IMG/VR virus record: IMGVR_UViG_3300018954_000007
Span: 1-22,432 of that record
DNA: 22,432 nt
Strand: one strand, 5' to 3'
Source: a virus
Positions 2,866 through 22,432 of this stretch are shown piece by piece (position 1 is the stretch's first letter; each line of letters begins with the position of its first letter). The position numbers and the translations under genes are program-made. A model generated the notes under the pieces. The model was given only the letters and a program-made list of their open reading frames with translations, made no database searches and was not told where the DNA came from.

Positions 2866-3242
2866 CCGCGCCTTGCCTCACCCTGCCTGCCATGCCTCGC
2901 CGGGCCCAGCCAATCCATGCCGCTCCACGCCATGCCCCGCCACACCAGGCCCTGCCTAGCCTGCCCCGCCTTGCGATGCGTCGCCACGCCGCGTCCCGCC
3001 ACGCCTTGCCCCGCCTGCCTCGCCAAGCCCATCCTATCCCTGCCGCGCCCCGCCGCGCCGGTCCGCGCCCGGCCATGCCTGCCGCGCCACGCCGTACCGC
3101 GCCAGGCCGTGCCATACCGCGCCTCGCCCCACCGGGCCTTGCCTCGCCACGCCTGCCTCGCCATACCGGGCCAGGCCAAGCCTCACCATGCCATGCCCAG
3201 CCTGCCACGCCGAGCCAGGCCAGGCCTGCCACGCCGTTGCTA
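2866..3242. repeat. Degenerate pentanucleotide tandem repeat (GCCNN on plus, NNGGC on minus)
   Basis: About 375 bp made of roughly 75 five-base units in which GCC is largely fixed and the other two bases vary freely (for example GCCAT, GCCTC, GCCGG, GCCCA, GCCAA). Occasional 2- or 4-base indels shift the phase. Because 5 is not a multiple of 3, all reading frames cycle through the same pentad, giving long Trp/Arg/Gly/Ala/His-rich open frames (WRG, ARHG, AWPG types) on the minus strand and Pro/Ala/His/Arg-rich ones on plus. The tract is bounded by normal sequence on both sides and lies upstream of the 2192-2818 gene. Its role is unknown. Possibilities are a recombination or replication site, an RNA leader element, or an expanding slippage tract. 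Confidence 0.85.
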
Positions 3243-3277
3243 TGGCTATGCGGCCTGCGCCGCACTCGTGTGCGGGC

Positions 3278-3322
3278 GTGGCGCGCCCTCCGCTCCCGCA
3301 CGCAGGAACGGGGGCGCGCCAC
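3278..3322. promoter_or_regulatory. Inverted repeat at the head of the pentanucleotide tract
   Basis: GTGGCGCGCCC at 3278-3288 is perfectly complementary to GGGCGCGCCAC at 3312-3322, with a 23-nt loop. It lies between the minus-strand promoter (3379-3407) and the repeat tract, so it would be at the 5' end of the transcript. It could be an RNA stem-loop or a protein-binding site. It shares GTGGCGCGC with the palindrome at 1599-1621. Confidence 0.4.
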
Positions 3323-3378
3323 ATCCGCCGCTATCGTCTCCCCTCCGGTGCGCACCGCGCCGCCCCGTCGACGATCTA

Positions 3379-3407
3379 GTTCTAAGCCACCGAAGAATAT
3401 TCGTCAA
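3379..3407 (-). promoter_or_regulatory. Sigma70-like promoter upstream of the repeat tract
   Basis: On the minus strand TTGACG (complement of 3402-3407) is followed after 17 bp by TAGAAC (complement of 3379-3384), matching the consensus at 5 of 6 and 4 of 6 positions. It sits in the most AT-rich stretch of this region (about 3380-3420), just after the stop of the five-gene operon. The expected start near 3372 would give the 2192-2818 gene a leader of about 550 nt that contains the repeats. Confidence 0.5.
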
Positions 3408-3477
3408 CCAAATTTTACTTGGCAGCCGTCAGGCCGCCTCAGCGCGAGGAGCCGCAGCCCTCCGGTGTCGAGCAGCC

Positions 3478-3663
3478 TCACGCGGAGCCCCCGGACACGA
3501 TGCGCAGCGCGAGGAGGCGGAGCGAGGCGTCGGGGCAGCGGGAGAGCGTGAGGCGCACGGCGTAGACCGCACAGGCGATGTGCGGGCCCGCCTCAAGCGC
3601 CGCGGTCGCGATCAAGTCGGCCACGACCGTCATGGGGTCGCCGGAAGTGATCCAGGGGCTCAC
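3478..3663 (-). CDS. Small protein of unknown function, last of a five-gene overlapping operon
   Basis: 61 aa from a GTG at 3663 that overlaps the TGA of the upstream gene (GTGA). Sequence features: a hydrophobic central helix VVADLIATAALEAGPHIACAV and a second segment with two Leu-rich stretches. The hydrophobicity is moderate, so a helical bundle or a weak membrane association is possible. I recognise no motif. Longer frames starting further upstream would run inside the neighbouring gene and look like shadows. The reading frame is supported mainly by the repeated 4-bp overlap pattern of this cluster. Confidence 0.5.
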   Translation of the reverse strand: MSPWITSGDPMTVVADLIATAALEAGPHIACAVYAVRLTLSRCPDASLRLLALRIVSGGSA

Positions 3664-5534: not shown

Positions 5535-6278
5535 ATGGACGCCCGGCCGGGTCGCTGCGTACCCTGCGGCACCATGGACAGGGGCGGTGGGCGGGACAGC
5601 GACGACGCGCGCGTGATCATCAACTCGGGGCCGCCGCCAGGTGGCTCTCGTGACGTCGAAGGGGCGCGCGTCCTCATCAACACCGGGTCACCACCACCAC
5701 AGCGCCGGCCGATCACCAACGAGGCTCGCGTGGTGATCGGGCGACCTGACCGACATGAGGCCGAAGCGGCCTCGCTACAACGTCAGTCTGGCGTGCACGC
5801 ATCCGGGCAGAGCATCAACCGACGTCGCATCGTAAGCAGTTTCTGGGGGAAGTTCGTCTTCTGGACCATCGCGGTGCCCGGCATAATTGTCGGCTGGATA
5901 GGATGGGGCGCCTACCGCGACATCAAAGAGAAGGACGTCCGAGAACAGCAACTCAAGTCGCATTATAATGCCGTGGTGCTCGCCGCGTTGGCGCGCATCG
6001 ACCGGCGAATCACGGAACATCCTCCCGAAACGCTCGCCGACGCCGAAAGAATCATCGGTCACCAGGGCTGGTGCGGTCGGTTCAAAGCTTTCAACCAATA
6101 CCCTACTGCGACATGGAGTTTTAGATCTGAGATCCCACTCGGCGACACCAGGGTGTGGCCAAACCCTGGTGAGTATGGAGACGGCGAAGCCGTCCGCGCT
6201 AGTGTCGAGTCCTGCGACCCATCGGCGAAGGTCCGGTCAGTGGACGTAGGGAAGCCGGAGCACATCCGGCGGCCCTGA
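5535..6278 (+). CDS. Single-pass membrane protein with three N-terminal repeats, unknown function
   Basis: Up to 247 aa. The N-terminal region holds three copies of a short repeat: DDARVIINSG, VEGARVLINTG and TNEARVVIGRP, separated by Pro/Gly-rich linkers. One hydrophobic helix follows (FVFWTIAVPGIIVGWIGWG, about residues 108-128), and a polar C-terminal domain of about 120 aa contains two Cys residues (GWCGRF and ESCDPS) that could form a disulphide if exported. An internal ATG at 5574 is the alternative start; neither has a good ribosome site. Codon use is less GC-rich than in the tail genes, which fits separate acquisition. It lies between the regulator and the lipoprotein on the plus strand. 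Function unknown. Confidence 0.7.
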   Translation: MDARPGRCVPCGTMDRGGGRDSDDARVIINSGPPPGGSRDVEGARVLINTGSPPPQRRPITNEARVVIGRPDRHEAEAASLQRQSGVHASGQSINRRRIVSSFWGKFVFWTIAVPGIIVGWIGWGAYRDIKEKDVREQQLKSHYNAVVLAALARIDRRITEHPPETLADAERIIGHQGWCGRFKAFNQYPTATWSFRSEIPLGDTRVWPNPGEYGDGEAVRASVESCDPSAKVRSVDVGKPEHIRRP

Positions 6279-16828: not shown

Positions 16829-19150
16829 TCAGAACCTCCGGCCAGGGCCGCCGCGGATCTCGCCGTCCATGCCCATCACGGGCACGTTCGGCTGCGGCGG
16901 GCCCGCGGCTGGCGGGTTCACGACCTCCACCTTCAGCACCCCGCCCAGCATCTTCGCGATCTGCGCGTCGCGCTGCTTCAGCTCTTCGCGCATCTCTCCC
17001 AGCCGTGACGCCTCGTGCGCGCGAGCCGTTGAGGCGTCGAAGCTGGTGCCGACGGCGCCGCCGGTCACGTAGTTCGCGATGCCGCTGAAGTACGCGCCGG
17101 CTTGAGCCGTGGTTGATGTGTCGTAGGACGCGGCACCCTTCACGCGCTCTGCGAGCGCGTCGCGCTTGTCCATCATCTCCCGCAGCAGAGCCGCGTCGAA
17201 CCCCCCGGCCTTGTCCATCTTGGCGGTCAGGGCCAACCGTTCGTTCGTCAGCGAGATGATGTTGCCCTCGGCTTTGTCCTTCGCCTCGGTGCTCAGGACG
17301 TTGTCGATGACGAGCCTGCCCACCTCGTAGATCGTCACCGCCGCCGCCGTGACCGCCACCGCCGCGCCGGCCGCGCCGAGAGCGGCGCCAGCCTTCCCAC
17401 CCGGGGAGCCGACGACGCCGGAACCCGAAAGCGCCCCGGCCGGGCCACCGCTCTTCACGAAGGCAGCGCGGATGGCGCTCTCGATGCCGGCGCGCATCGT
17501 AGCCTCGCCTGCCGCGCGCATGACGGCCACGCCAGCCGCCGCGAAGATCGCCCGGAGTGGGTTCTCCGCCGCCCACGTGCCGAGCTTCGCTAGCCCGTCC
17601 ACCGCGTCCAGCGCAGCCGGAGCCAGCTTTTCCAACTGCGGAAGGAACGAGCGGAACGTGGTCATGATCCGCTCCCCGACTTGGTTGTTGAAGTCCTGCG
17701 CCTTCGCGGCCGTGGTGCTGGTCGCGCCCTTGAAGTTTTCGAGGAGCTGCCCCTCTCCCATTGCGACCTTCGCGAAGCGCGCGAACTGCGCATTCACTGC
17801 AGCCACCCCTGCCTCATTCGCGGCTTGCTTGCTCCCACCACCCTTGAGCACCGATGCCCGCTCATTCCTGAATATCGTCGCGAACCCCTCGACCGCGCGG
17901 GCGCCCTGCACGTTCGCCCACATTTTTTTGAACTCCTCCGGATTGCCCTCGCTCGACTTCAAGCTATCGATGATGATCCGCTGGATGCTGTGCATCAGAC
18001 CCGTTTCAGGATCGATCACCTCGACGCCATGGGCCTTGAACTCCCCGAGGCGTGCGGGGGTCTTGAGGGTCGAGACCATCGAGCTGATGGATGTGGCGGC
18101 GGCCGTCGGGGACACGCTGCCACCCATCTTTCGGCTCATCTGGATAATCGCGCCCATCTGGCCCATGTTGGCTTTGATGTCGCCCTCAAAGGCGCCGGCT
18201 GCCGCCGCGAGCTTAGCCCCCTGCGAAGCGAGATCCTTGAACTCGACGGCGCCGATCTTCGTCTGACCGGCAAGCGCGCGGATCACGCCCTTGATAGCTT
18301 CGGCCTTGTTCTCGACACCCTCCATCTGCTGCGCCATCTCGCCTGCGGTGCCCGCGAGGTCGCTGAATGTGGTGTCCGTGGCGCGCGCCGCGAACGCCAT
18401 ATCGCGCATGAGGTCGCGTCCCAGTTGAAGATCTCCAACGATGCCAGTGAACTTCTCCAAGCCGCCCATCACGTCGCTGGGGTCCATCTTCGCGAACGCC
18501 GCGATGGCGCGCGTCTCCGCCTCCAGCGTCTTCGGATCCTGGCGGACGTTGTTGGCCGTCGGCTTTTCCCCTGGCGCCAGCATCGACGGGTCCATGAAGC
18601 CAGCATTCGAGAGAGCGACGGACCGCTTCTCCAGGTCGATGCCCTTGGCGATGTGACCCCCGATGTCGAGGTCTACGCCGGCCCCCTTGGCGACGTCACG
18701 CGCGACCGCTGTGGCGCCCCGCCCCAGGTTGTTGAAGTGGTGCACGGCCCGGTAGCTGGTGCGGCGACCGAAGCTCTCCTGGTCACGTGCCTGACGCTGG
18801 GCGGCGCGAGCCTCCTCGCGCTCGTAGCGCTCCCGGATCCTGAGGACGTGGTCCCGGGCACGGGCGCGCTGCTGGGCAGCGCGCTCCTCGTCGCGTGCCT
18901 GCTGGTCGAGCGCCTTCTTGTTGATGACGACGGTCGCCTCGGCGGCGCGCTTCGCCTGGCGGATCTGCTCGTCGGCGGAGCGCTTGGCGTGGGCGGGCGC
19001 GTCTCGATAGACGCTTCCGGCTGCCTTCGCGGCCTTCCCCAGCTCGGCCTCGATCTGCTGGCGCGCGCGGCGCGCCGACTCGGCCAGCGGGCGGAAGAGG
19101 CCTGCGACGTTGGCGTCGAGCGCGGCGCCTACGCGGATGCGAAGCTGCAT
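16829..19150 (-). CDS. Tail tape measure protein
   Basis: 773 aa from the ATG at 19150. The N-terminal 140 aa is a charged coiled coil (RQQIEAELGKAAKAAGSVYR, ARDHVLRIRERYEREEARAA). A central domain contains KEFTGI/GAVEFKDLASQGAKLA-type segments common to phage tape measure cores (QTKIGAVEFKDLASQGAKLA, MGQMGAIIQMSRKMGGSVSP). Two hydrophobic Ala/Gly-rich stretches follow (AIFAAAGVAVMRAAGEATMR and GAAGAAVAVTAAAVTIYEVG). The C-terminus is helical and ends in a Pro-rich tail. The protein sets tail length; by the usual 0.15 nm per residue rule 773 aa corresponds to about 115 nm. It lies downstream of the chaperone, as expected. Stop TGA at 16829-16831. Confidence 0.9.
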   Translation of the reverse strand: MQLRIRVGAALDANVAGLFRPLAESARRARQQIEAELGKAAKAAGSVYRDAPAHAKRSADEQIRQAKRAAEATVVINKKALDQQARDEERAAQQRARARDHVLRIRERYEREEARAAQRQARDQESFGRRTSYRAVHHFNNLGRGATAVARDVAKGAGVDLDIGGHIAKGIDLEKRSVALSNAGFMDPSMLAPGEKPTANNVRQDPKTLEAETRAIAAFAKMDPSDVMGGLEKFTGIVGDLQLGRDLMRDMAFAARATDTTFSDLAGTAGEMAQQMEGVENKAEAIKGVIRALAGQTKIGAVEFKDLASQGAKLAAAAGAFEGDIKANMGQMGAIIQMSRKMGGSVSPTAAATSISSMVSTLKTPARLGEFKAHGVEVIDPETGLMHSIQRIIIDSLKSSEGNPEEFKKMWANVQGARAVEGFATIFRNERASVLKGGGSKQAANEAGVAAVNAQFARFAKVAMGEGQLLENFKGATSTTAAKAQDFNNQVGERIMTTFRSFLPQLEKLAPAALDAVDGLAKLGTWAAENPLRAIFAAAGVAVMRAAGEATMRAGIESAIRAAFVKSGGPAGALSGSGVVGSPGGKAGAALGAAGAAVAVTAAAVTIYEVGRLVIDNVLSTEAKDKAEGNIISLTNERLALTAKMDKAGGFDAALLREMMDKRDALAERVKGAASYDTSTTAQAGAYFSGIANYVTGGAVGTSFDASTARAHEASRLGEMREELKQRDAQIAKMLGGVLKVEVVNPPAAGPPQPNVPVMGMDGEIRGGPGRRF

Positions 19151-19280: not shown

Positions 19281-19598
19281 TCAGCCAGGCGTGCTGTCGC
19301 TTCCTGTTGGAGGGGGCAGCGCGTAGTTGTAGACGATGTAGCCGTTGGCGTGGACTTCGCAGCTCGTCACGGCGATGGCGCTCGGGTGTTTGTCCGCGCA
19401 ATGCATAACCGCTCGGCCCCATTCAGCACCCGAGCAGGGTCTGCCAGCTTCGGCCAGTGCGGAAGCCGCAATTGCAGCATTCTCGTCGCTTGGCACTACA
19501 TCAGCGTGCTCGCTCACTTCGTCGTCCATTGCCAGACAGCCGAAGGCGGCGACCCCGAGCAACGCGGCGCAACCCGCAGCAATGATATTCAACTTCAT
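19281..19598 (-). CDS. Small lipoprotein, accessory gene between chaperone and tape measure
   Basis: 105 aa from the ATG at 19598, with GGAGG 7-8 nt upstream. The signal MKLNIIAAGCAALLGVAAFG ends at Cys21 (lipobox AFGC, so position -3 is Ala and -2 the unusual Phe), suggesting a lipid-anchored protein. The mature part is acidic (MDDEVSEHADVVPSDE) and contains three Cys (RPCSGAEWG, VMHCADKH, TSCEVHANG). It is transcribed with the tail operon but lies in a lower-GC island (19151-19748) with non-coding flanks of 130 and 150 bp. This resembles a moron. I do not recognise a family. A role in envelope modification of the lysogen is possible but not shown. Confidence 0.75.
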   Translation of the reverse strand: MKLNIIAAGCAALLGVAAFGCLAMDDEVSEHADVVPSDENAAIAASALAEAGRPCSGAEWGRAVMHCADKHPSAIAVTSCEVHANGYIVYNYALPPPTGSDSTPG

Positions 19599-19748: not shown

Positions 19749-20366
19749 TCAGCCCTGCTCCCCCGCCGCGCCCTCACCCTCCGCGCCGCGCGCGAGGGCC
19801 TCGCCGAGGCGCTCCAGCACGACAGCGAGCAGCCGGCGGGTGCCGCGCTGCTCGGCGGGGCTCATCTGCCCCCAGGGTGCGCCCTGCTGGAGAAGGGCGG
19901 CGAGGTCGGCGACCTCGTCGTCGGTGGCCGGCTTGTAGAGCGGGCTCATCTCCAGCTCGAGCATCTCGATCTCGTGCGCGAGCATCTTCACCCCCTCGGT
20001 GGAGAGGGCGATGCGCACGGTGTCCTCGGCCATCTGGAACCACGGCTCGCGGACGTCGTGTGGCTGGCAGGTGGCGCGGGCGATGAGCCACCGGAGGAGG
20101 GCGTCGTTGAAGCAGTCGACGGCGTTCTCCACGTCGTCCGCCGAGGGGTGCATCTGCGCCGCGTACTTGGCGGCCTCGGCCCGGGCGACCTGCTTGTCGT
20201 GGTCGGGCACGAGGCGAAGGCCGATCTGGACGGGCTCCTGGGGGCGCTCAAGCCAGTCGGACGCGAACGCCTCCGGGGGCACGTCGATCACCCGGGGCGC
20301 GAGCCAGCGCGCCTCGTCCGCGCCCGCGCCGGCCGCCGGCTTCGAGATCTGGCTAAAGGTGCTCAT
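19749..20366 (-). CDS. Tail-region protein of unknown function, after the chaperone
   Basis: 205 aa from the ATG at 20366, which overlaps the TGA of the chaperone's zero frame (ATGA) and lies 6 bp after the TAG of its -1 frame. Helical, with Trp/Met-rich segments (DWLERPQEPVQIGLRLVPDH, ADDVENAVDCFNDALLRWLI, VREPWFQMAEDTVRIAL) and an acidic Ala/Glu/Gly-rich C-terminal tail. Its place between chaperone and tape measure is where other phages encode a second chaperone or tape-measure-associated protein, so it might coat the tape measure (inference). No specific family recognised. Confidence 0.7.
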   Translation of the reverse strand: MSTFSQISKPAAGAGADEARWLAPRVIDVPPEAFASDWLERPQEPVQIGLRLVPDHDKQVARAEAAKYAAQMHPSADDVENAVDCFNDALLRWLIARATCQPHDVREPWFQMAEDTVRIALSTEGVKMLAHEIEMLELEMSPLYKPATDDEVADLAALLQQGAPWGQMSPAEQRGTRRLLAVVLERLGEALARGAEGEGAAGEQG

Positions 20367-20962
20367 CCGCCACTACTCGCTGTCGGCGCCCTGCTTGGCG
20401 AGCCGGTCGAATTCGGCGCGAAGTCCGAGGAAAAGAGCGATTTGAGCTCGGGTGAGGCGAGCGCCAGCCTGGCCGTAGAACGAAGAAGGATCCACTGCAA
20501 GCCGGGCCGCAATCGCACGAAAGGGCGCTCATCCTCGCTGGTCGCCACCTCGACGAGGTGCTGCAGGACCTCCTCCCCGCTGAGCTTCAGCTTCCGCGGG
20601 GAGCACTGGTCCTGCCAGACCTCCTGGGCTGCGAGCAGGTAGGCGATGGTGTCGCGGTTGAGTCCCTGGACCTGCGCGAGGCCCCCGTCGAAAAAGGGGG
20701 CCGGCGCGTCCTCGGGGCTGTCCTTGTCGATGCAGGCGCGCAGGAGGGTGTGGAGCGCGCGCCCGCGCTCGTACTGCGGGTCCCCTTCCCTCGCCTCGCC
20801 GCCGTGCTTTTTGGCGAACTCCGCGGCCGCCTCGTCGATGGCGGTGTCGTCGCCGTCGTCGAGCACGCGCACGTCGAGCTCGCAGACCTGGCCGGAAGGC
20901 AGCGGCAACTCGACGCGGTGCCGGGCGAAGCGGCCGAGGGCGATCTGGCTGAACTTGGCCAT
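20363..20962 (-). CDS. Tail assembly chaperone (Mu gp41 / lambda gpG-like), zero frame
   Basis: 199 aa zero-frame product from the ATG at 20962. The first 148 residues look like a genuine protein: LPSGQVCELDVRVLDDGDDT, AIDEAAAEFAKKHGG, QYERGRALHTLLRACIDKDS, VQGLNRDTIAYLLAAQEVWQ, KLSGEEVLQHLVEVATSEDE. It lies between tail tube and tape measure, the place of the chaperone in contractile and non-contractile phages. At codons 147-148 (Pro-Phe) the sequence is C CCT TTC, a perfect -1 slippery heptamer. After it, the zero frame reads a Ser/Pro/Arg-rich sequence, while the -1 frame reads a well-formed helical protein end (see 20373-20528). A -1 frameshift as in lambda gpG/gpGT would give a 196-aa product. 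The ATG has no clear ribosome site; it follows the tube stop by 3 bp. Confidence 0.8.
   Translation of the reverse strand: MAKFSQIALGRFARHRVELPLPSGQVCELDVRVLDDGDDTAIDEAAAEFAKKHGGEAREGDPQYERGRALHTLLRACIDKDSPEDAPAPFFDGGLAQVQGLNRDTIAYLLAAQEVWQDQCSPRKLKLSGEEVLQHLVEVATSEDERPFVRLRPGLQWILLRSTARLALASPELKSLFSSDFAPNSTGSPSRAPTASSGG
20373..20528 (-). other. -1 frame extension of the tail assembly chaperone
   Basis: In the -1 frame a TGA at 20529-20531 is followed by an open stretch to TAG at 20373-20375. Past the slip site it encodes RAIAARLAVDPSSFYGQAG, then ARLTRAQIALFLGLRAEFDR and LAKQGADSE. This has a normal amino-acid balance and regular amphipathic helices, unlike the zero-frame sequence at the same place. 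Its stop ends 6 bp before the ATG of the next gene. Joined at codon 148 it makes a 196-aa fusion protein. Confidence 0.65.
20519..20525 (-). promoter_or_regulatory. Slippery heptamer CCCTTTC for -1 frameshifting
   Basis: On the minus strand the zero-frame codons CCT-TTC are preceded by C, giving X-XXY-YYZ = C-CCT-TTC. After slippage the two tRNAs re-pair with CCC and TTT. An internal Shine-Dalgarno-like GAGGA lies 7 nt upstream of the heptamer, close to the distance known to stimulate -1 shifts. I see no strong stem immediately downstream. Confidence 0.6.
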
Positions 20963-20965
20963 GGG

Positions 20966-21340
20966 TCAGAGGACGTCGGGCTTGCCGCCCTCGAAGGTGA
21001 ACTGCCCAGTGCAGGAGCCGTTCTTCGTGTCCCAGTTGTAGGAGCGCGAGGTCATGCGCCCGTCGAACTGCTCGTAGCCCCCGTCCACCGGGATCCCGAC
21101 GGTGCAGTACTCCTTGTTGAGGATGATGCGCTTCAGCTCGAGCTCGTGTCCCTTCACGGGGGTGATGGTGTTCGCTTGAACGCGGCAGGTGTCGGCGCCG
21201 TCCGAATGCCCCATGTAGCCCTCGGTGGCGATCTGCATCTCGTCGTTCGAGTTGTGCTCGTACGAGCCGCCGCTGACCTCGGCAATCTTCCGGCTGTTCA
21301 CGTACAGCGGCAGCGCCCTGATGATCTTGCCCTTCGCCAC
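20966..21340 (-). CDS. Tail tube protein (Mu gpM-like)
   Basis: 124 aa from a GTG at 21340, with GAGGT about 6-8 nt upstream. Beta-rich throughout: GKIIRALPLYVNSRKIAEVS, GGSYEHNSNDEMQIATEGYM, GHSDGADTCRV, then KGHELELKRIILNKEYCTVG, QFDGRMTSRSYNWDTKNGSC, TGQFTFEGGKPDVL. Size and the 'DGRMTSRSYNWDT..G...G.F.F.GGKP' ending fit the Mu gpM tail tube family, whose rings stack to form the inner tail tube through which DNA passes. It follows the sheath gene directly, the classic contractile-tail order. Ends 3 bp before the chaperone start. Confidence 0.88.
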   Translation of the reverse strand: MAKGKIIRALPLYVNSRKIAEVSGGSYEHNSNDEMQIATEGYMGHSDGADTCRVQANTITPVKGHELELKRIILNKEYCTVGIPVDGGYEQFDGRMTSRSYNWDTKNGSCTGQFTFEGGKPDVL

Positions 21341-21348
21341 GATCTACC

Positions 21349-22432
21349 TCACGCCTGCTGGCGCACCGAGACGCCGATTTGGTGCTGGTTCGGGGCCGGG
21401 ACCACCGGCACGATGCTCATGATGCGCTTCGCGGCCCGGTTGTATTCGGCAACCACCGGGTTCTCGTCCACCTCGATCAGGATGGGCGGCGAGGCGCTCT
21501 CCTGGTCCTTGAGGTACTTCGTCGCCCGCTGCGCCCAGCGCGTCGGCGTCGCCACCCCGGCCGGGCGGTCCTTCTGGCCCTCGGCGGGGTCATCGGCGAC
21601 GCGCGGGTTGTTCTTCTTGAACTCGCTCGTCCAGATGAGCCGGAGCCCGTCGCGCACGTAATCGGGGACCACGGCGTAGCTCGTATCGAGGGTGCCGTAG
21701 TCGGGGTCCGACCCGTTGAGGCAGCGCGTGGTGATCGACATGACCACCACGACGCGGCCATCGGCCGTGGTCGTGAGTGGCGTGACGCCGTTGTCGAGCG
21801 CGCTGCTCTGGGTGCTCGCCTTCGGCCAGTCCGCCACGAAGGCCTGCGGGGCGATGCCGAGGAGCTGCACGTCGTCGTAGGCCGCGTCGGGGTCGTCCTG
21901 CTCCGTGATGGTGCGCAGCGCCGCGAGCGATGCGGCGATCTCGCTCGGGTGGCTCTCGCTGTTCAGGAGCCAGGCGTTCTGAAAGCGCTGGTAGTTGAGA
22001 GTCGTGGTGCTGAGCGACTGCGAAGCCGAGAGCGCACCGTGGCCAGCGACGACATAGTGCTCCATGCGCCCTTCGAGCGGGCCCGCCTTCACGAGGCTGT
22101 GGCTCTTCCAGCGTGCGAGGTTCGTCGCGTCGTTCTGCGCGATCGCGATCCGGTGATACCAGCCAGGGAGCAGCACCGAGAGGAGCGTGGTCACGTCCTC
22201 GGTCCCTGCGCCGCTCGCGAACTTCACGCCCCCGCCGGTCACCGTGGAGCCGCCAGCGATGGCCGAGCTGATGCCCGAGGCCAGGCGCGTGGTGACCTGG
22301 TGCAGGATGTAGTCGTTGCCTCGGATCCCGGGGCTCTTGACCGTGAGGGTCACGACGTTGCTGCCGCCGCCGCCCACGGAGGCGGTGACCGGCAGCCGTG
22401 GGCGCGAGTTGATCGCGGCCGCGATGTCCGTG
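21349..22432 (-). CDS. Contractile tail sheath protein (Mu gpL-like), N-terminus outside the window
   Basis: About 360 C-terminal residues are visible; the frame is open to the right edge (TDIAAAINSRPRLPVTASVG), so the gene starts outside. The middle contains VLLPGWYHRIAIAQNDATNL and LEGRMEHYVVAGHGALSASQ, then NYQRFQNAWLLNSESHPSEI. The C-terminal domain carries VVVVMSITTRCLNGSDPDYG, LDTSYAVVPDYVRDGLRLIW, and RVADDPAEGQKDRPAGVATP. These match the style of Mu gpL sheath proteins: a substrate-like 'I......' domain followed by the conserved C-terminal domain that forms the inner sheath mesh. It is followed by the tube gene. An internal GTG near 22377 is not the true start. Confidence 0.88.
   Translation of the reverse strand, partial: TDIAAAINSRPRLPVTASVGGGGSNVVTLTVKSPGIRGNDYILHQVTTRLASGISSAIAGGSTVTGGGVKFASGAGTEDVTTLLSVLLPGWYHRIAIAQNDATNLARWKSHSLVKAGPLEGRMEHYVVAGHGALSASQSLSTTTLNYQRFQNAWLLNSESHPSEIAASLAALRTITEQDDPDAAYDDVQLLGIAPQAFVADWPKASTQSSALDNGVTPLTTTADGRVVVVMSITTRCLNGSDPDYGTLDTSYAVVPDYVRDGLRLIWTSEFKKNNPRVADDPAEGQKDRPAGVATPTRWAQRATKYLKDQESASPPILIEVDENPVVAEYNRAAKRIMSIVPVVPAPNQHQIGVSVRQQA

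Follow-up and report, generated by a model that had tools for sequence, protein, structure and literature searches.

In a Mu-type phage with a contractile tail, the gene of a tail assembly chaperone very probably gives two isoforms through a programmed -1 frameshift at C_CCU_UUC; the ending of the non-shifted form is apparently selected too, and in one related lineage gene duplication seems to have split the two endings. The frameshift itself belongs to a known kind, the G/GT-type frameshifting of tail chaperones. The evidence comes from the phage locus, from the same locus in related viral contigs, and from a comparison with the systems already described.

Tail module and chaperone genes of the window

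The window analysed here is the whole stretch of 22,432 b of the IMG/VR virus record IMGVR_UViG_3300018954_000007. It carries a Mu-type, contractile tail module with the chaperone locus on the minus strand, and the gene order is sheath, tube-like gene, chaperone, P0002, a small ORF, a probable tape measure gene, a baseplate hub gene (phrog_177 match) and a gene with a weak match to Mu Gp48. The tail sheath gene (21349..22431, minus strand) matched phrog_165 with an E-value of 1.1e-37, and its 5' end lies outside the window. The tail tube-like protein, assigned by position, is encoded directly upstream of the chaperone (20966..21340, minus strand) and is conserved among relatives in the same place after the sheath. 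The chaperone gene in its zero frame occupies 20363..20962 on the minus strand, from ATG at 20962 to TGA at 20365-20363, and encodes 199 aa. Downstream, past P0002, there is the gene of a probable tape measure protein of 773 aa (16829..19150, minus strand), which was named by position and length only and gave no family match. The same order of tube, chaperone and tape measure was found in L002, L012 and L018, where tube and tape measure were likewise assigned by position.

P0002 is separated from the probable tape measure gene by a small ORF of 105 aa (19281..19598, minus strand). This ORF has a lipoprotein-like start and no family matches, and it is possibly a moron. In L002, L004 and L012 the tape-measure-like gene follows directly after the chaperones, without this intervening ORF.

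The shared chaperone domain comprises residues 1-146 of the 199 aa product. An AlphaFold2 model of the chaperone, built on 7 aligned sequences, had a pLDDT of 76.5, and among solved structures it matched best with 2ob9, the tail assembly chaperone of HK97 (Z 9.1, rmsd 4.0, 102 aligned), followed by YqbN 3klu (Z 7.5); the next match had Z 4.2. In a Foldseek search of viral models, too, the top hit (E 6.9e-4) was a tail assembly chaperone. At the level of families, PHROG 508 (tail assembly chaperone) matched one of 11 family members (E 0.0015), and the Pfam search of the chaperone family gave no family match. The predicted fold, together with the position between tube and tape measure, supports the gene at 20962..20363 as that of a tail assembly chaperone, as a sequence-only reading of this DNA had named it.

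P0002 (205 aa; 19749..20366, minus strand), whose start overlaps the zero-frame stop of the chaperone gene (ATGA), is related to the shared chaperone domain as a diverged paralogue. Comparison of the two with hhalign gave E-values of 4.2e-7 and 1.5e-6, against 0.91 for the tube as control. The near-identical starts, MAKFSQI in P0002 (20366-20346) and MSTFSQI in the chaperone (20962-20942), both on the minus strand, are in keeping with paralogy. Against viral structures P0002 gave no more than weak matches. The window codes for two paralogous chaperone genes in tandem, which would give three chaperone forms if the frameshift operates.

Slip site and the two overlapping endings

The slippery heptamer C-CCT-TTC lies in -1 phase at 20519..20525 on the minus strand, and the zero-frame codons at this CCCTTTC (20525-20519) are CCT TTC. 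The nearest upstream stop of the -1 frame in the window is one codon ahead of the heptamer, which means that this frame becomes open right at the slip site. It codes for a tail of 50 aa, PFRAIAARLAVD...ADSE, and ends with TAG at 20375-20373 (20373..20525, minus strand); the putative frameshift product has 196 aa. The zero frame continues for 51 codons past the heptamer to a TGA which overlaps the next ATG (20366-20364, ATGA), and its tail of 53 aa (PFVRLRPGLQW...ASSGG; 20363..20524, minus strand) overlaps the -1 tail. The sequence-only reading had described a perfect X-XXY-YYZ heptamer where the zero frame ceases to look like protein and the -1 frame begins to, a zero frame open for 51 codons to the overlapping TGA, and products of 199 and 196 aa with different C-termini; all of this agrees with the exact coordinates on the minus strand.

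Scans of viral contigs with the chaperone, P0002 and sheath as anchors yielded 11 distinct relatives with a readable locus. L016, which does not differ from L015 at the locus, and L014 and L017, whose DNA ends before the slip site, were left out before counting, and L003, L005, L007-L011 and L019-L024 are repeats of contigs already counted. The site CCCTTT[C/T], in -1 phase and with the same Pro-Phe codons as in the window, was found in 10 of the 11 relatives; L012 and L034 have CCCTTTT instead of CCCTTTC. The -1 tail is also conserved, with a length of 47-57 aa across the frameshift loci and the consensus PFRxxAARFAxELxAYFGQPVxELTRAQxALWLGLR. Among 8157 reference codons, taken from the sheath, P0002 and the shared-domain sequence of 11 loci with the window included, there was no in-frame CCCTTT, in-frame XXXYYY heptamers occurred 12 times, and CCT made up 6.2% of the Pro codons. 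We regard the in-phase CCCTTTC of the chaperone gene as more than chance. The sequence-only reading had proposed a programmed -1 frameshift and had pointed to conservation of the slip site as a check on it, and both the site and the -1 tail are indeed kept in these 10 relatives.

In each of the 11 frameshift loci, which are the window and these 10 relatives, the zero frame stays open for 41-85 codons counted from the site, or 39-83 codons past the heptamer. The products are 191-231 aa in the zero frame versus 194-215 aa in the -1 frame, and the pattern of a short G and a longer GT, which is usual and not strictly defining, was not found across the 11 loci. Near-equal products, noted before as unusual in the window, are thus seen family-wide, but the long zero-frame tail taken alone has a precedent in SPP1 gp17.5, whose zero tail is likewise longer than the usual pattern. 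Mean column identity was 31% for the zero-frame tail versus 52% for the -1 tail. In the structural model the zero-frame product is helical to residue 177 and disordered beyond. The zero-frame tail of L012 has an extra acidic stretch of about 35 codons beyond the -1 stop (6043-6152).

No convincing conserved RNA stem was found downstream of the site: 70-nt folds in 7 loci had z from -1.58 to +0.73, and RNAalifold gave 9 weak consensus pairs. A downstream RNA stimulator of the shift was therefore not supported by either approach. Tetramers like a Shine-Dalgarno (SD) motif occur at most 22 nt upstream of the site in 10 of 11 loci; their distance varies and they are partly forced by coding. The -1 tail was compared with the T parts of known phages, and its scores were not above shuffles for lambda (120 of 400 shuffles as good), P2 (228/400) and Bxb1 (234/400), and marginal for HK97 (15/400). 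Homology of the -1 tail with P2 E' was not supported, with no match by hhalign and a P2 score not above shuffles. Searches of isolate phages, plasmids and genome contigs found no relatives. Isolate phages gave distant matches of the sheath only; the nearest was MW202476, in which tblastn detected no chaperone-like stretch and whose 266 aa protein had an hhalign E-value of 0.019 and a probability of 2.4.

GC3 of the -1 tail was 0.40-0.70 at the 11 loci versus 0.79-0.95 in the reference genes of the same loci, and resampling in 7 loci gave 0 of 20000 draws as low as the -1 tail in any locus. We then kept the -1 proteins fixed and shuffled the synonymous codons (2000 shuffles), with near pairs reduced to 9 lineages for the pair score (L002 and L015 left out). 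The similarity of the zero-frame peptides among the 9 lineages had z of 8.1 (within-sequence usage) and 6.1 (pooled usage), and none of the 2000 shuffles was as similar. The 24 control windows in non-overlapping genes reached z of at most 2.38 and 0.76, and they matter because the shuffles ignore relatedness. An earlier version with 7 loci gave z of 5.2/3.7 for the far set, where 29 controls ranged from -2.5 to 2.4, and 4.85/5.5 for the tail in near pairs, where one sheath control was up to 3.5/3.2. Direct codon identity between pairs in the tail was modestly above expectation.

Openness of the zero frame by itself is weak evidence. If the -1 protein is fixed and codon usage is normal, a single locus has a chance of 0.31-0.77 of staying open over 40 codons; multiplied over the 11 frameshift loci, all of which are open for 40 codons or more, the chances come to 0.0018-0.005 when relatedness is ignored. 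The zero frame of L012 goes on for 35 codons past the -1 stop, with a coding-like GC of 0.86/0.54/0.83, and its stop overlaps the start of the next gene (GTGA). The GC3 drop, the similarity beyond the reshuffles and the L012 extension together argue that the overlap stretch is dual-coded, and it looks as if both frames are constrained as protein.

Duplicated chaperone genes in one lineage and the rival explanations

The remaining readable relative, L004 (IMGVR_UViG_3300037510_000353), has the gene order sheath, tube, P0002-like gene, chaperone copy a, chaperone copy b and tape-measure-like start, and so there are three chaperone-type genes in a row. Copy a (2357-2935) ends with PFLELSPGLLWSVLRALGGYVLA..., a tail of zero-frame type. 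Copy b (2935-3522) reads ...CPFLAYAARMSSDLQSYYGRPVCELTKAQIALFMGLRAEY... in plain frame, which is a tail of -1 type. The tail of copy a was matched as well by 0 of 500 shuffles against the zero-frame profile and by 276 of 500 against the -1 profile; it resembles the zero-frame tails significantly, though to a modest degree, with at most 12/40 identities. The tail of copy b scored 90.8 against the -1 profile versus 13.0 for shuffled sequences (0/500 as good), and 333/500 shuffles were as good against the zero profile. CCCTTT is absent from both copies. GC3 of the two copy tails was 0.87 and 0.88, and that of the rest of the genes 0.89 and 0.84.

In the shared-domain tree, copies a and b group with the window, L002 and L006, with support of 80/98 for the group and not for the order inside it. 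Because all other lineages frameshift, a frameshifting ancestor that later duplicated would be the simpler history for L004. Duplication seems to have replaced the frameshift in this lineage, which argues that both C-termini are used. The sequence-only reading had named an uninterrupted -1 tail, or a shared zero-frame tail, in homologues as signs against a programmed shift. Such tails were found in L004 only, where they belong to separate duplicated genes, so the proposed shift in the window is not contradicted.

From these results we consider it likely that the shift chooses between two dedicated, overprinted C-terminal modules of equal length, and that in one lineage duplication took the place of recoding: copy a has the zero-frame ending, copy b has the -1 ending, the slip site is lost and codon usage is normal again. 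If true, L004 is a natural experiment in resolving an overprinting conflict, and the non-shifted chaperone ending would itself be required.

Several other explanations were weighed against this one. The frameshift might be real and the zero-frame tail a passenger, open by chance in GC-rich DNA, and this would match the single-locus chances of openness given above and the weak conservation of the zero-frame tail. But GC3 is depressed in 11 of 11 loci, the zero-frame similarity exceeds both reshuffles and controls, L012 has an extension in the zero frame only, and L004 copy a keeps a tail of zero type as a plain gene, so we regard a mere passenger as improbable. It is still less probable that stimulation of the shift by a conserved RNA element or by pausing codons, and not selection on the zero-frame protein, accounts for the odd third positions of the -1 tail. 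The signal covers about 40 codons and is visible at the peptide level, no consistent fold was seen downstream of the site, and copy a, which lacks the slip site and uses codons normally, keeps the zero-type peptide; on the other side, -1 shifts often require stimulators, and high conservation is seen at some nucleotides around the LTRAQ codons.

The zero-frame stop overlaps the next start, or is at most 3 nt from it, in the window, L002, L006, L012, L015 and L018, as would be expected if the zero frame were open solely to bring terminating ribosomes to the next gene start, with a peptide that has no role. Such translational coupling could well act together with the main explanation. As the sole reason it is hardly probable, because the reshuffle test gave a signal at the peptide level, the zero-type tail is kept in L004 copy a, and in L013 and L034 the zero stop lies 35 and 44 nt ahead of the -1 stop. 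The sequence-only reading had offered a base insertion error as its alternative, that is, a single continuous gene split by one inserted base or by a sequencing error. The window is a single metagenomic contig and its -1 tail is protein-like, which would suit an error of this kind, but the same break, heptamer and two frames are present in 10 of the 11 readable relatives, all from other contigs, and this alternative is rejected.

Proposed mechanism and comparison with known systems

For two isoforms with separately selected endings we propose the following mechanism, in which the slippage of ribosomes, the re-pairing of tRNAs and the isoform ratio are steps that we infer. Most ribosomes would presumably remain in frame and make the 199 aa isoform, whose ending is a short helical segment followed by a disordered tail rich in Ser and Thr. 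Some would slip back one base, with tRNA-Pro moving from CCU to CCC and tRNA-Phe from UUC to UUU, and make the 196 aa isoform with a different and better conserved tail of 50 aa. By analogy with lambda gpG/gpGT, the shared domain may form a coat on the tape measure protein, and the -1 tail may recruit tube subunits; both roles are carried over from lambda. The zero-frame ending would be a product apparently selected and encoded in the same roughly 40 codons as the -1 tail. In L004, duplication would have given each ending its own gene, with the slip site absent.

In the usual description, tail chaperone frameshifting yields two forms, one short and one long, at a set ratio. In the window family each form apparently has its own selected ending, and the L004 arrangement separates control of the ratio from isoform identity. 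The two L004 copies are a ready pair of single-isoform genes for testing the role of each ending and the need for a ratio. Rarely can dual coding, its footprint in codon usage and its release upon duplication be compared, as here, in a single gene family. In the open-access literature, searched with limited scope, we found no report of duplication replacing tail-chaperone frameshifting, nor a description of isoforms of near-equal length whose overlapping tails both show evidence of selection.

The overlap of zero and -1 frames in known phages, taken as an upper bound from the last upstream -1 stop (for TM4 by annotation only), is at most 20 codons in lambda, 11 in P2, 16 in HK97, 49 in Bxb1 and 14 in TM4. 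Lambda gpG/gpGT (NC_001416) resembles the window in the shared N-terminal chaperone domain, the -1 slip, the alternative C-terminal tail and the gene position between tube and tape measure, as given in the relevant passages of PMC5009743; however, its -1 product is much longer and its zero frame ends 5 codons past GGA AAG. P2 gpE/gpE+E' is similar in its contractile tail, its order of sheath, tube, chaperone and tape measure, its -1 slip and its -1 extension of about 57 aa, but in P2 the zero-frame stop comes 20 nt past the shift site and the -1 tails have no detectable sequence similarity. The HK97 chaperone (2ob9) also uses a -1 frameshift and is the best structure match of the shared domain, whereas its frameshift product is about 224 versus 128 aa by coordinates and there is no match at the sequence level. 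The Mu gp41 region has its chaperone in the same place, and Mu-type sheath, hub and Gp48-like matches are found in the window, but Mu uses a -2 shift, according to the same passages of PMC5009743, and Mu gp41 has no sequence similarity with the window chaperone.

For SPP1 the comparison is by published description. In the part of PMC6316719 that deals with these proteins, gp17.5 has 173 aa, of which the first 112 are common to gp17.5*. A putative -1 shift and a zero-frame product reaching about 61 residues past the shared 112 are like the window, but the frameshift product is far longer, at 297 aa, and that part mentions neither selection on the zero tail nor duplication. By this account SPP1 gp17.5 comes nearest as a precedent for a zero-frame tail of such length, and a long tail in itself is not unique. 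The portion of PMC4493119 on TP901-1 describes that the loss of either chaperone form, or their forced fusion, gave no infectious phage, which fits a need for both forms. Compared with lambda, HK97 and P2, the window family differs in that its zero-frame ending is apparently selected in its own right.
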